From a virus, in IMG/VR virus record IMGVR_UViG_3300017773_000008, positions 1 through 60,771 of that record: a stretch of DNA of 60,771 bases; one strand, written 5' to 3'. The position numbers were made by a program, and so were the translations under genes. Numbering within the stretch: the first letter of the stretch is position 1; each line of letters opens with the position of its first letter. Shown here one piece after another: positions 15,649 to 53,126 of the stretch. The notes beneath the pieces are model-generated. The model saw only the letters and a program-made list of their open reading frames with translations, was not told where the DNA came from and ran no database searches.

Positions 15649-16041
15649 ATGGGTGAGATAACCCCTGATAAACTAACTAAGACGTTTTTAAAAATACGAG
15701 CAAAGCGATCTTTAATGACTGCTGAATTTAAAAAAGAAGACGATAAACTACAGCAACAACTAGATCGTGTTAAACAGGCCATGCTAGATCATTGCGAGAG
15801 GCACAATGTTCAAAGCGTTAAAAGTTCTGAAGGATTGTTCTTTACGTCTAATAAAACGAAGTATTGGGCAAGCGATTGGGATGCTATGCACACTTTTATA
15901 AAAGAGCATAATATACCAGAGCTGTTGGATAAACGTATTAATCAGACTAACATGAAGGATTTTTTAGAAGACAACCCTGATAAAGTTCCTGATGGGCTTG
16001 AGATAAGTCAGGAAACATCAATATCTGTGAGGAAAAGATGA
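15649..16041 (+). CDS. Unknown 130-aa protein upstream of the SSB gene
   Basis: The N-terminal half is a coiled-coil-like helix (about residues 10-50) and the C-terminal half is compact (W-ASDWDAMHTFIKEHNIPELL, then a predicted loop). It vaguely recalls Gam- or Gp157-type nuclease-inhibiting or recombination-associated proteins of phages, based on length, N-terminal coiled coil and position, but I cannot assign it. AGGAAGAGGAG gives a strong ribosome binding site. The end overlaps the next gene by 4 bp. Confidence 0.6.
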   Translation: MGEITPDKLTKTFLKIRAKRSLMTAEFKKEDDKLQQQLDRVKQAMLDHCERHNVQSVKSSEGLFFTSNKTKYWASDWDAMHTFIKEHNIPELLDKRINQTNMKDFLEDNPDKVPDGLEISQETSISVRKR

Positions 16042-16289
16042 ACGAACCTTTTGTACCAATAGAAGATGTAGCCAAGCACTTTAGTGTTTCTATATCTACT
16101 GTCCGTGCATGGGTACGTCAAAAGCACATACCAGAGGATGCTTATTTTAAGATAGGCAAGACCTACAGGTTTCGTGTTGGTGATGTAGCCAATGCACTTA
16201 CTAAAGTCACCAGTGAGGATACATCTAGTAATAAAGATGACCTTGTTGATGAACTACCAAGTCTAGATGATCTAGATGAAGACCTATAA
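16038..16289 (+). CDS. MerR/excisionase-like HTH protein
   Basis: This 83-aa protein has an N-terminal winged-helix DNA-binding domain of the HTH_17 type: IEDVAKHFSVSISTVRAWVR (residues 7-26), then a wing with KIGKTYRFRVGDV (about 40-52). The C-terminal tail is acidic. Such proteins act as excisionases, regulators or accessory replication proteins. No integrase is present in the window, so a regulatory role is more likely. It is coupled to the upstream gene by ATGA and lies just before the SSB gene. It is the clearest HTH in the window and another candidate binder of the repeated sites. Confidence 0.75.
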   Translation: MNEPFVPIEDVAKHFSVSISTVRAWVRQKHIPEDAYFKIGKTYRFRVGDVANALTKVTSEDTSSNKDDLVDELPSLDDLDEDL

Positions 16290-16310
16290 CTGCGGAAGAA
16301 GGAGACGCGA

Positions 16311-16973
16311 ATGGAAACTTATATAATAAAAAACGTAGAAGCCTTATGGCCTAAAATAAATCGTACCTATCATTTTGATAGTAATGAGGGTCGGTCTATG
16401 CCATGTGACCCTAAAGATGCTAATGCAGAATACTCTATACAGTTTCGTATGGACAATGATACTGCAAAAAATCTTTATACTGAGATGGCTAAATCATACC
16501 AAGCTAATCGTAAAGATAAGTGGGCTGAAAAATTAGAACGCCCGTTTGTTAAAGATGACAATGGTATGTTTACGCACAAGTCTAACTTGAAAGGCGCATA
16601 CAAGAACGAGGTAACAAAGAAACCTCTACAGGTTGATGCGAAAGGTACGAAACTACCTGATGACTTCTTACTGACTACAGGAAGTGTGATTAATGTAGCT
16701 GTACAGTTTATACCTTATGACATGGGGGGTAAACAAAACATATCCCTACGATTAAAAGGTGTACAGGTTATCAAGTACGTGCCTATTGAAGAAAGAAATC
16801 CTTTTGCAGCAGAGGAAGGATTTACTATGGATGCGGACAACCCTTTTAGTGCAGATGCACCTGTTAAAGAGGAAGCTGTCCCAGAACCAAAGAAAGTTGT
16901 TAACAAACCCGCAAATCCACCTAAAGCGGCTGATGACGACTTGAGTGCTATTGTTGATGACTGGGATGACTAG
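16311..16973 (+). CDS. ssb: Single-stranded DNA-binding protein (DUF2815-like)
   Basis: This 220-aa protein resembles DUF2815, the T7 gp2.5-like group of phage SSBs with an OB fold (about residues 1-160). A proline/lysine-rich linker leads to an acidic C-terminus ending in DDWDD, the usual tail by which SSBs recruit polymerase and helicase. It would coat the single strands formed by the primase-helicase encoded next. GAAGGAGA is a strong ribosome binding site. A 12-bp palindrome, ATGACTAGTCAT, covers the end of the gene. Confidence 0.8.
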   Translation: METYIIKNVEALWPKINRTYHFDSNEGRSMPCDPKDANAEYSIQFRMDNDTAKNLYTEMAKSYQANRKDKWAEKLERPFVKDDNGMFTHKSNLKGAYKNEVTKKPLQVDAKGTKLPDDFLLTTGSVINVAVQFIPYDMGGKQNISLRLKGVQVIKYVPIEERNPFAAEEGFTMDADNPFSADAPVKEEAVPEPKKVVNKPANPPKAADDDLSAIVDDWDD

Positions 16974-16984
16974 TCATTTTTGCC

Positions 16985-17068
16985 TGCTGCTCTAATAGTA
17001 GCACTCCACCACGACTAGGCATTGCCGAAACGAGTAACGTGCCGTACTCTGTCGTGGTGTCTTCGGCA
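16985..17068 (+). ncRNA. Pseudoknot-like structured leader of the primase gene
   Basis: Hairpin A pairs TGCTGCT (16985-16991) with AGTAGCA (16997-17003), including one G-U pair. Stem B pairs CACCACGAC (17007-17015) with GTCGTGGTG (17051-17059) perfectly, and holds an inner GAGTA/TACTC stem (17032-17036, 17045-17049). TGCCGAA (17023-17029), inside the loop of stem B, is complementary to TTCGGCA (17062-17068) just after it, which makes a pseudoknot. A rival pairing is GTGCCG (17039-17044) with CGGCAC (17064-17069). The structure ends about 20 nt before the chosen start codon, so it could control translation of the primase-helicase. Confidence 0.6.
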
Positions 17069-17088
17069 CACCAAATATGGGTGGGATT

Positions 17089-19836
17089 ATGGAAACGAAA
17101 CAATTTTTGCAAAGGGTATTAGGAGATGGTTTTTACTGCGTACTAGCATTAGGTAAAGACCGTAGAATACAAAAGTTTTATAGCTCTGTAGATGAAGTTA
17201 TTAACAGTGCTAATAGTTTAGATGAGCAAGGATACGATACATACTTTGGGTTAGCCACGTTTGAAACAGGTGAGTCCAGAAAAGTTCCAAATGTAAAAAG
17301 CCTTAGTTCTTTCTTTTTAGATTTAGATTGTGGTGTAGGTAAAGACTACGAAAGCCAGAACTTGGCGGTCAAAGACCTACGCGCATTCTGTGATAAGTTA
17401 GATTTACCAAAACCTATCATGGTAAACTCTGGATATGGAGTCCATGTATACTGGGTTTTACAGGAAAGCGTAGCGTATGATGAGTGGTTGCCTGTAGCCC
17501 AGGCGCTCAAAGATAAGTGTACACAGCATAAGTTGTTAGCAGATATAGCAGTAACTGCGGACGCGGCCAGGGTACTTAGGATACCCAATACACACAATCA
17601 CAAGAAAGGCTTGTTAAAACCTGTAGAGTTTTTTGGTACAGGTGAGATGAACATAGTTAACTTTGAAGAGTTCTCTCGTCTGCTTGGTGGAGGACTGATG
17701 CCAGTGCCTGTCAAGATGGACAACCAAGAGAGTGCATTTAGAGAAGCTATTATGTCTAACTCTGAGCATTCTTTTAAGAATATAATAATGAAAACCAAAG
17801 AAGGTAAGGGGTGCTTTCAGTTAAAGAATATAATAAAGAACCAACAAGATGTAAGCGAACCCTTGTGGAGGGCAGGACTATCCATAGCGAAGTTTTGCAC
17901 TGATGCTAAACAGGCAGTGCATATTATGTCTAAAAACCATGAAGGGTATGATGAGAAGTTAACAGAAGAGAAGGTAAATCTTATAAAGGGGCCGTATCTT
18001 TGTTCATCATTTAACGAACACAACCCTGATGTATGTGAACATTGTCCACACTGGGGTAAAATATCTTCTCCTATAACACTTGGTAAGTTGATAAAAAGAG
18101 CAGGAGAGAGTAAAGAAATACCAAAATATCCAGAACCCTACTTCCGAGGTGCAAATGGCGGTGTGTACACTCAAATTCGCTCCGCTGATGGGGATATAGA
18201 AGAACGAATGATATACCAGAACGACTTATATGTTGTGAAACGTATACATGACGTAGAGACAGGTGAAGCAATAGTGATGCGTTTGCACCTACCTAAAGAC
18301 GGTGTAAGGGAGTTTACAGTTCCGCTAACTGCTGTAACATCAAAAGAAGAACTGAGAAAACAACTATCTATGCAAGGCATAGCAGTATTAAGGATGGATG
18401 AAATTATGACATACACAACAACATGGGTCACTCAACTACAGGCTCAAAGCGTTGCTGATGAAGCACGTAGGCAGTTTGGGTGGACAGGTGACGAGTGCGA
18501 TAGTTTTGTGCTTGGTAACGAAGAAATATGCAAAGATGAGATAAAGTTTAACCCACCATCAACACAGACTACAAGTTTGTTCCCCTCATTTGAACCCAAA
18601 GGTACGTTGGAGGATTGGAAAGATACGATTAACTTCTACAATCGTGATGGTTTTGAACTGCATCAGTTTGTAGTTGGCACGTCTTTCGGGTCACCACTAA
18701 TGAGCTTATCTCCTATAAAGTGTGCCGCACTACATATATACAGTAAGGAGTCTGGTGTAGGTAAAACTACAGCTATGGCGGCAGGTGCATCTGTGTGGGG
18801 TGACCCTGATGACCTAATCATACATGAGCGAGACACGTACAACACCAAGATGAACAGAGGTGAGGTATACCATAACTTGCCATTATACATGGATGAGCTT
18901 ACCAACACGTCAGGTAAAGAACTATCTAATCTTGCGTATCAGCTTACAGGTGGTAGGCAGAGGGGTAGAATGTCTGCAAACAGTAACACAGAACGACACA
19001 GAGGTGACTCATGGAAACTTCTTGCTGTGACTACAGGTAATACAAGCATGGTAGAACGTATAAGTATTATCAAGGCTATGCCCAAAGCTGAAGCTCAGAG
19101 GATTATGGAGTGCAGAGTAAGCCGTATACACTTTGAAACAAAAGAAGAGACTGATGTATTTAGCTCTTGTCTACAGAATAATCATGGGCATGCGGGCAAG
19201 GAGTATATCAAATATATCATTAATAATAAAGAAGAAGTTGCAAAAGTATTAAAGACTGTACAAGAAAAAGTAGATGCCAAGGCAGGGTTAACTGCGGAGA
19301 ACAGATATTGGTCAGTCCTCGTAGCATGTACCATAACAGGTTTGATGTTAGCAAAGAAAGCAGGACTTATAGATTATGACGTGCGTAGGGTATTTTCTTG
19401 GGCGATAGATCGTTTGAAAGAAAACAAACGTCAGGTAGAAGATATGAGCATATCTGTGGAAGAGACTTTAAATGACTACATACATGAGCATTGGAGTAAC
19501 GTGCTGTGGATAAAGAGTACAGATGACCTAAGAAAACAAGAAGGTGATGTTGTATCTCTAGTAATACCAGAAGCAACACCTAGAGGTAAGTTTGTTGCCC
19601 GATATGAAACAGACTTAAAACGTGCATATCTTATACCTAAACCTCTGAAGGCATGGTGTGGAGAACAACAGATAAACTACAGTGCTTTCGTGCATGATTT
19701 AAAAACTAAACTTGGCGCAACAAATACAACCATGCGGTTGAGTAAAGGCACACATATGGCTCTGCCTGTGACACGTGTGATAGTCGTAGATTGTTCAATA
19801 GAAGATGAGAATAAGACAGGGAATACTGAAGACTGA
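17089..19836 (+). CDS. Primase-helicase (AEP-like primase plus DUF927-like ATPase)
   Basis: This protein of about 915 aa fuses two activities. The N-terminal region resembles archaeo-eukaryotic-type (prim-pol) primases: FFLDLD (about residues 74-80), SGYGVHVYW and RVLRIPNTHNHK (about 161-172). The C-terminal region resembles DUF927-type helicase ATPases, with Walker A SKESGVGKTT (about 551-560) and a following Walker B-like LPLYMDEL. It would unwind the fork and prime synthesis for the family A polymerase. The ATG at 17089 is preferred to the one at 17077 because GGTGGG precedes it; the difference is four residues. The structured leader just upstream suggests post-transcriptional control. Confidence 0.85.
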   Translation: METKQFLQRVLGDGFYCVLALGKDRRIQKFYSSVDEVINSANSLDEQGYDTYFGLATFETGESRKVPNVKSLSSFFLDLDCGVGKDYESQNLAVKDLRAFCDKLDLPKPIMVNSGYGVHVYWVLQESVAYDEWLPVAQALKDKCTQHKLLADIAVTADAARVLRIPNTHNHKKGLLKPVEFFGTGEMNIVNFEEFSRLLGGGLMPVPVKMDNQESAFREAIMSNSEHSFKNIIMKTKEGKGCFQLKNIIKNQQDVSEPLWRAGLSIAKFCTDAKQAVHIMSKNHEGYDEKLTEEKVNLIKGPYLCSSFNEHNPDVCEHCPHWGKISSPITLGKLIKRAGESKEIPKYPEPYFRGANGGVYTQIRSADGDIEERMIYQNDLYVVKRIHDVETGEAIVMRLHLPKDGVREFTVPLTAVTSKEELRKQLSMQGIAVLRMDEIMTYTTTWVTQLQAQSVADEARRQFGWTGDECDSFVLGNEEICKDEIKFNPPSTQTTSLFPSFEPKGTLEDWKDTINFYNRDGFELHQFVVGTSFGSPLMSLSPIKCAALHIYSKESGVGKTTAMAAGASVWGDPDDLIIHERDTYNTKMNRGEVYHNLPLYMDELTNTSGKELSNLAYQLTGGRQRGRMSANSNTERHRGDSWKLLAVTTGNTSMVERISIIKAMPKAEAQRIMECRVSRIHFETKEETDVFSSCLQNNHGHAGKEYIKYIINNKEEVAKVLKTVQEKVDAKAGLTAENRYWSVLVACTITGLMLAKKAGLIDYDVRRVFSWAIDRLKENKRQVEDMSISVEETLNDYIHEHWSNVLWIKSTDDLRKQEGDVVSLVIPEATPRGKFVARYETDLKRAYLIPKPLKAWCGEQQINYSAFVHDLKTKLGATNTTMRLSKGTHMALPVTRVIVVDCSIEDENKTGNTED

Positions 19837-52162: not shown

Positions 52163-53068
52163 TTAGATTTGTAAATTCATCCAAACAAGAGAATATTCCG
52201 TAGTGGCATTAACAACCATAACTTGACCAATATTAACAAGTGTTGACCCTGAACTTGGCTCAACAGCTCCTGCTGTAGAATCTGATCTCATACAGTTATG
52301 TCCAAGAACCAAAGTTCCTTCTGTCAACAACGCCTGTGGACCTGCTACTGTAAGCCAACCATAATAATCGGCTGTCATATCAATAAGAGTCGCCCCAACT
52401 ATAGCACCTGCTTCTGCTGTAGGAGCAACAACAACTTGCGAATATGGGTTATGGATTAAAGAAAGTTGAGAGCTTGTGGTCAATGCAGTCACTAATGGAT
52501 CATAAGTTGTTATAACAACACTAGGATCGTCTGAATGGTCATGTGCAGGGTTAGATTTTACCCTCATTGTCTGACCTTCACCATTAACGTCATTTACATA
52601 AAGATATCCATCTGCATACTCATTTAGTGTTAGATCATTACCACCTGTTTCAACTGAAATAGCGGTTTCACCAGCACTTACTGCAGCGGTTGCGGTCATG
52701 TTTAAATGATTTGAATCTTGAGCTTGGTGTGCAACAAGTTTTCCCGCTGTAATACCAGAACCGCCATTCAAGCCATAACGATACACATTATTACCATACA
52801 CAAGCATAGCACCCAAAGGAAATAGCTGTGTTGAACTTTCTGCGTAAGGGTTTACAGTTCCGTACTGACTACCACCTTTGCCGACAATCAGATCGGCAGG
52901 GCCATAACCTGTAGCGGCTGCGTACTGTAAGTGGCCTCCTGCTGTATTAGTTACATTTCCTGAAGAATTAACTGTAAAATTATTAGTAAAAGCGCCTATA
53001 GCACTCTTAGTAACTTGTATAAATCCGTTTTCGGCACGGACTGACCCATTAAATGTTGTATTAGCCAT
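52163..53068 (-). CDS. Virion structural protein next to the capsid gene
   Basis: This 301-aa beta-rich protein starts MANTTFNGSVRAENGFIQV and is rich in Gly, Ala, Thr and Val without charged clusters, as is typical of virion surface proteins. It lies just after the major capsid gene and its terminator. I associate such sequences with head-fibre or decoration proteins of marine phages. AGGAGATTAAC is a strong ribosome binding site. Confidence 0.7.
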   Translation of the reverse strand: MANTTFNGSVRAENGFIQVTKSAIGAFTNNFTVNSSGNVTNTAGGHLQYAAATGYGPADLIVGKGGSQYGTVNPYAESSTQLFPLGAMLVYGNNVYRYGLNGGSGITAGKLVAHQAQDSNHLNMTATAAVSAGETAISVETGGNDLTLNEYADGYLYVNDVNGEGQTMRVKSNPAHDHSDDPSVVITTYDPLVTALTTSSQLSLIHNPYSQVVVAPTAEAGAIVGATLIDMTADYYGWLTVAGPQALLTEGTLVLGHNCMRSDSTAGAVEPSSGSTLVNIGQVMVVNATTEYSLVWMNLQI

Positions 53069-53126
53069 GTTAATCTCCTTGTCTTGGCTACTGTCAGCTA
53101 CACCATGTAACTGTCAAGGTTAATTT

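Follow-up and report, generated by a model that had tools for sequence, protein, structure and literature searches.

Pseudoknots placed beside or over the Shine-Dalgarno sequence control translation initiation in the preQ1 and SAM-II riboswitches and in the S15 operator. The int-alpA RNA (RF02996), typed as «Gene; sRNA» by Rfam, is a catalogued RNA without known function which is now linked to the conserved leader of abundant uncultured marine phages. In phage T4, gp32 binds a pseudoknot located 67 nt 5' of its own start codon and blocks translation (PMC3014915).

The DNA analysed here, referred to as the window, is a stretch of 60,771 nt corresponding to positions 1 to 60,771 of the IMG/VR virus record IMGVR_UViG_3300017773_000008. 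A leader element is present on its + strand in the 115-nt gap separating the gene of a single-stranded DNA-binding protein (SSB) from that of a primase. Judged by comparison with its relatives, this leader RNA is a divergent variant of the int-alpA RNA, occurring in uncultured marine phages that form a large family.

The SSB-primase junction

The upstream gene (16311..16973, + strand) encodes a gp2.5-like ssDNA-binding protein (PHROG 112, E 4e-18; Pfam Enc34_ssDNA-bd, 4e-6), whose acidic tail ends in DDDLSAIVDDWDD before the stop codon at 16971-16973. The downstream gene (17089..19836, + strand) encodes a DUF927 primase-helicase (Pfam DUF927, 2e-28; PHROG 8841 primase/helicase, 1e-48). Its ORF opens earlier, with a first ATG at 17077, and the start at 17089 (METK) is the one conserved among relatives. 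The motif GGTGGG (17080..17085, + strand), 4-9 nt 5' of this ATG, is the probable Shine-Dalgarno sequence of the primase gene. Two genes 5' of the primase, positions 16038-16289 (+ strand) encode an HTH_17/excisionase-like small protein, of a broad kind that includes AlpA-like regulators. Elsewhere in the window, the Rfam family RF03012 (Mu-gpT-DE RNA) matches positions 53066-53119 of the - strand with 67.7 bits, where the ORF 52163-53068 begins.

Marine IMG/VR contigs often carry members of the primase family: one scan confirmed 191 relatives, another 565. No close relative was present in the phage-record collection, where the best match has 28% identity, and a protein scan of genome contigs gave none. 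The RNA is absent at the distant primase homologues of Pseudomonas phage Rollin and of one Rhizobium phage, as well as at the DUF1376 loci of six phages that have been isolated or sequenced. A DNA-pattern search of genome contigs returned 12 matches, all of them without the fold on inspection, and several viral pattern matches (e.g. L323, L336, L350, L440-L445) were attributed to chance.

A first-pass annotation of the window had described, in front of the primase gene, a hairpin followed by a 9-bp stem whose loop pairs with the 3' flank, and had interpreted this layout as an H-type pseudoknot with a rival helix and a possible switch. All the segments it named are present in the sequence: the perfect 9-bp stem CACCACGAC (17007-17015) / GTCGTGGTG (17051-17059), which is P1 of the conserved fold; TGCCGAA (17023-17029), complementary to TTCGGCA (17062-17068); and GTGCCG (17039-17044), complementary to CGGCAC (17064-17069). 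The preceding hairpin (TGCTGCT, 16985-16991 / AGTAGCA, 16997-17003, + strand) also exists, but it had been counted as part of the element and is found only in the closest relatives of the window (L001 and L003, shortened in L002); from its distribution, the hairpin at 16985..17003 is clade-specific and probably external to the conserved RNA. On one sequence, the geometry of a stem with a loop-to-flank match is at chance level: a perfect 9-bp stem with a 6-bp match between loop and 3' flank occurs at 4 places in the window (both strands), and 1-2 times per strand in simulated sequences (Markov, matched dinucleotide content). The nested fold of the single sequence has a z of -2.55. The element is considered as above chance because a covariance model built without the window finds it (59 bits, E 3e-14) and because its helices covary.

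Conserved fold and pseudoknot

Leaders came from the primase homologues and from IMG/VR matches to a DNA pattern, and two covariance models were used: R1, a model of P1-P3, and R2, built from 20 primase-family leaders only, the window being left out. A search of 92 sources with R1 yielded 82 matches, almost without exception a single one per locus and, within the family, in the SSB-primase gap; 13 of 17 phage records carry one RNA copy. Relatives share the order P1 (9-10 bp), UA, P2 (GGN-loop-NCC), GAA(A), P3, 3' strand of P1, UCUYU, pseudoknot strand, Shine-Dalgarno sequence and AUG, in which the conserved motifs are CUAGG, GAA and the pyrimidine-rich tail.

In the window, the int-alpA-like RNA matched by the models extends from 17004 to 17076 on the + strand (R2, 59 bits, E 3.4e-14; R1, 57 bits). 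The 5' strand of P1 (17007..17015) belongs to a helix with two-sided changes in 8/9 pairs and 96.9% of cells paired, and its 3' strand (17051..17059) was assigned from the pair counts. The P1 5' strand is followed by the UA junction (C-UA-GG, 17016..17017), invariant in alignments A3/A5 and in the RF02996 consensus, and by the P2 mini-hairpin GGC-ATT-GCC (17018..17026), in which 98.1% of cells are paired and the third pair varies (UA/CG/AU/GC/UG). A GAAAC linker (17027..17031) holding the conserved GAA, and corresponding to GAAAAG in the RF02996 consensus, leads to the P3 hairpin GAGTA / TACTC (17032..17049), which has an 8-nt loop and two-sided changes in 7/7 modelled pairs. The conserved pyrimidine tail UCUU (17060..17063, alignment A4) comes directly after P1. 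All these features are on the + strand, as are the two strands of the pseudoknot, GTGCCG (17039..17044) within the P3 loop and CGGCAC (17064..17069).

In the R1 alignment, 92.6% of cells are paired and 17/19 pairs show two-sided changes, a pair count biased in favour of the modelled structure. Covariation scores 0.461, compared with 0.218 for shuffled and 0.06-0.18 for slid alignments. Many of the sequences are close relatives and the permutations take no account of the tree; given the sliding control and the effect size, a chance origin of the covariation is unlikely. G.U pairs outnumber A.C mismatches on the + strand by 37:5 in P1 and 22:1 in P2 (59:6 together), an excess that points to selection on the coding-strand RNA.

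For the pseudoknot, the best contiguous pairing of the P3 loop, or of the P2-3'/GAAA stretch, with its own tail was compared with the pairing obtained with tails taken from other sequences. The P3 loop favours its own tail (13.89 vs 11.90 permuted, z 8.2, 0/20000, 64 distinct sequences), and this preference is retained with one row per distinct P3 loop (z 6.0, 0/20000); part of the signal may come from shared ancestry, the permutations being tree-blind. Examples of loop/tail pairs are GTGCCG/CGGCAC, GTGTCA/TGACAC, ACCGA/TCGGT and GCACC/GGTGT, as well as CTTCACC/GGTGAAG vs CGTTACC/GGTAACG. On these comparisons, the covarying pseudoknot is that of GTGCCG in the P3 loop with CGGCAC 3' of P1, so that the pairing described in the first-pass annotation as a rival is the conserved helix. 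The H-type pseudoknot TGCCGAA/TTCGGCA, which had been put first, shows neither covariation nor own-tail preference (cognate 13.75 vs permuted 13.81, z -0.2) and was rejected as the conserved pairing; its apparent strength arises because the CCGAA and UUCGG/UCGG segments are conserved. In some leaders (e.g. L005, L013, L022, L024) the helix of this type is interrupted and the loop-tail pairing is kept. Covarying pairs, which had been proposed as the check on both helices, are thus found in P1 and in GTGCCG/CGGCAC but not in TGCCGAA/TTCGGCA, and the switch imagined between the two loop helices is left unsupported. What stands of the original description is a pseudoknotted leader RNA 5' of the primase gene, with compensatory changes across relatives: its segments, P1 and the existence of the leader RNA were right, P2 and P3 were missed and the wrong pseudoknot helix came first, and the interpretation was borne out in part.

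Two further helices were tried. A pairing AAAG/CUYU of the linker with the tail was dropped, A:C combinations being common in it by eye, and an outer helix P0, joining the spacer that separates SSB and P1 to the RBS region, was not significant family-wide (z 0.8). Within one clade (L059, L060, L067, L105, L138, L147), P0 changes in step (CACCAUA/UAUGGUG, CACCAAAA/UUUUGGUG).

Absence of the leader at homologous primase genes had been named as an observation that would speak against the element, and it applies to some relatives: 57 unique leaders have the full fold and in roughly 30 (about a third) a simpler hairpin alone occupies this position. In the distant primase-family leaders L107-L125, L135 and L151, the junction holds only a simple GC-rich hairpin, and the tails (TTTTCT, CTCTC) are rich in pyrimidines. 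The pseudoknot is absent in L394/L364/L413 and shifted or lost in L038/L148. These clades, together with the plain-hairpin leaders, indicate that the full fold is not indispensable. Two leader types without P2 and P3 retain the loop-tail pairing (L032, UGUUUAAA/UUUAAACA; L065/L069, AYACUG/CAGUGU). A copy with a ~40-nt insertion in P2 was observed in L241 (1821-1934).

Relation to the int-alpA RNA

Searching the leader (16900-17160) against Rfam 15 gave no family, riboswitch classes included, at E<=10, and RF02996 gave nothing on the window either at its gathering threshold or at E<=10. The earlier remark that the leader is not a known riboswitch class was therefore right, yet the RNA is a relative of int-alpA. 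Four pattern matches outside the primase family (L333, L339, L342, L389) exceed the RF02996 gathering score, and the best primase-family copy tested, leader L378, reaches 31.9 bits (E 0.008) for a cut-off of 35.8. In the other direction, R2 was run on a target set of 199 kb including copies located in genomes by RF02996; besides the window, it matches, at E<0.02 (best 1e-7), 17 genomic and 4 viral int-alpA copies, with hardly any further match. The helix order P1, UA, P2, GAAA(A)G, P3, P1' of RF02996 is present in the window according to the R2 alignment, the pair counts and the consensus, and a P3 loop complementary to the post-P1 sequence is found in the primase family and in int-alpA copies. 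The integrase/alpA neighbourhood of int-alpA was not found at this locus, the window RNA being flanked by SSB and primase. From these model matches, we take the window RNA to be homologous to int-alpA, or at least of the same structural class; it is named int-alpA-like, and not a member of RF02996, because the Rfam cut-off is not reached and the gene context is different.

Copies of int-alpA usually lie 3' of one gene's stop codon and 5' of the following start codon. In genomic copies, P1 often starts within ~10 bases of the upstream stop codon, the upstream gene is an integrase in 6/10 proteins tested by Pfam, and the next ORF usually begins 24-37 nt 3' of P1, the next starts being longest-ORF guesses by script, some of them doubtful. 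The genes downstream of the RNA vary, and include primase genes, DUF1376 genes and genes that Pfam does not match. The upstream gene is not an integrase in L461 and L462 (NYN domain; Rce1-like), contexts which suggest that RNAs of this class may not be confined to integrase loci. In L447 (1582-1890, - strand), a YdaS-like gene lies directly 5' of the int-alpA RNA and a DUF1376 gene directly 3'.

The P3 loop of int-alpA copies matches a proximal target, in the first 17 nt after P1 (z 7.4, 0/20000 permutations), and a distal target, in nt 18-45 after P1 (z 5.4, 0/20000 permutations); a composition control using other intervals of the same locus gave combined p values of 2e-15 (proximal) and 5e-11 (distal). 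Complementarity of the loop to targets near the next start codon favours cis action on translation. Primase-family leaders show a weak copy at the distal position, on the RBS side (z 2.3-2.9). Among the genomic int-alpA copies L450-L485, the distal copy is often found within the loop of a small hairpin whose stem varies, immediately 5' of the start codon (e.g. L478, L484, L461, L462, L465), with only a modest excess of such hairpins over a shuffle control; this arrangement suggests a decoy or a kissing-loop switch. A tentative generalization, which we regard as possible and no further, is that int-alpA-like RNAs are broad intercistronic translation switches of phages and other mobile elements, in which the loop would pick either the post-P1 decoy (pseudoknot) or the RBS-hairpin copy (kissing loop), the primase leaders being derived forms that keep the RBS-side pseudoknot. 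If true, joint changes of loop and targets could fit one core RNA to whichever gene lies downstream.

Proposed control of primase translation and known systems

Wherever the start of a primase-family member was identified, the 3' end of the pseudoknot is 11-19 nt 5' of the AUG (19 nt in the window, counted to 17089), a region that lies within the coverage of the 30S subunit. The distance from the SSB stop to P1 is 6-33 nt (median 13; 33 in the window). Starts and distances alike are those of gene predictions. Building on the observed fold, pseudoknot covariation, strand, position and int-alpA relationship, we consider it rather likely that the leader is a cis-acting intercistronic RNA of int-alpA type, which would gate primase translation by means of a pseudoknot next to the ribosome site. 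In its fold, P1 encloses P2 and P3, and the P3 loop pairs with the tail 3' of P1, closing the pseudoknot directly 5' of the primase RBS. In its closed state, the pseudoknot would deny access to the primase start, whether to a 30S subunit or to a ribosome that re-initiates downstream of the SSB stop; in many members, the terminating SSB ribosome would reach P1. Opening would permit higher primase initiation or re-initiation, and primase output would thus be set apart from that of the abundant SSB. Candidate triggers are a protein of the phage or of its host, the ribosome, or a ligand of the CUAGG/GAA core. By analogy with T4 gp32, the SSB would be a natural candidate; the presence of the same RNA class beside integrases speaks against an SSB-specific ligand.

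The best rival explanation is a leaky transcription attenuator or mRNA 3'-end stabiliser, in which P1 and the pyrimidine-rich tail would end or protect most SSB mRNAs, so that SSB would be plentiful and primase scarce, and the pseudoknot would tune read-through. It ranks first because the hairpin is the most widespread feature of the junction and distant relatives (L108-L125) have simple GC-rich hairpins followed by TTTTCT or CTCTC, some of the tails being U-rich and terminator-like; the RF02996 consensus also has a U-rich tail after P1. Such a role is nevertheless unlikely, considering that no terminator-like site (GC hairpin and U-run) was detected on the + strand in 15900-17300, that the family tail is UCUYUCGG, with no U-run, and that a terminator would be expected to show neither the steady distance between pseudoknot and start codon nor the int-alpA loop complementarity at the next start codon. 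Quite improbable is a trans-acting sRNA resembling the C4/CI antisense RNAs, that is, a processed element whose P3 loop pairs with other phage transcripts: the RNA is short and compact, int-alpA is classified in this way by Rfam and the loop-and-target logic is like that of C4, which represses phage genes by pairing, but the loop covaries with cis targets on the same transcript, no promoter-like site was detected on the + strand in 15900-17300, and the P4 CI RNA belongs to RF01695 (C4) and not to RF02996. Less probable still is a riboswitch, with a CUAGG/GAA core binding a small molecule and a pseudoknot coupling this binding to the ribosome site; the compact three-helix pseudoknot, the conserved unpaired residues beside the RBS and the single copy per genome are in keeping with it, whereas the downstream genes (primase, DUF1376, no Pfam match) have no common metabolic theme and the Rfam riboswitches gave no match. 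A structured single-stranded DNA element (origin or primase site), conceivable for a hairpin-rich sequence between SSB and primase genes, is hardly credible for an RNA class also found beside integrases and showing the above G.U excess on the + strand, which points to a coding-strand RNA.

The link to the marine leaders, together with the covariation of the loop with sequences next to the following start codon, makes of an orphan sRNA entry a proposed gate on translation, acting in cis and open to test, for which nature supplies many loop/target pairs suited to compensatory mutants. A way in which phages might separate primase from SSB output in one operon is suggested as well.

Among known systems, the preQ1 and SAM-II riboswitches and the S15 operator share with the window RNA a pseudoknot near the Shine-Dalgarno sequence, and differ from it by their secondary structure, with no Rfam match. 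The P4 phage CI RNA was tried as a member of the same class and scores with RF01695, not with RF02996; the RF01695 covariance model has no match in the window and matches the P4 CI control. The C4 antisense/P4 CI RNA (RF01695) is comparable as a compact phage RNA with a stem around two hairpins and recognition by a loop, but it has a longer P1 and lacks the CUAGG/GAAA core. The T4 gene 32 leader also places a pseudoknot 5' of the RBS of a replication gene, at a compatible position; the T4 element precedes the SSB gene, whereas the window RNA follows the SSB and precedes the primase, and the folds are unrelated. With respect to int-alpA, the window RNA differs by its SSB/primase context in place of an integrase and its neighbour, by its invisibility to RF02996, by a weak or absent RBS-side second loop target, and by another loop sequence and a lower GC. 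Both nevertheless share the succession P1-UA-P2-GAAA-P3-P1'-pyrimidine tail, with model matches in both directions, a P3 loop complementary to the tail, and a location between same-strand genes just 5' of a start codon.
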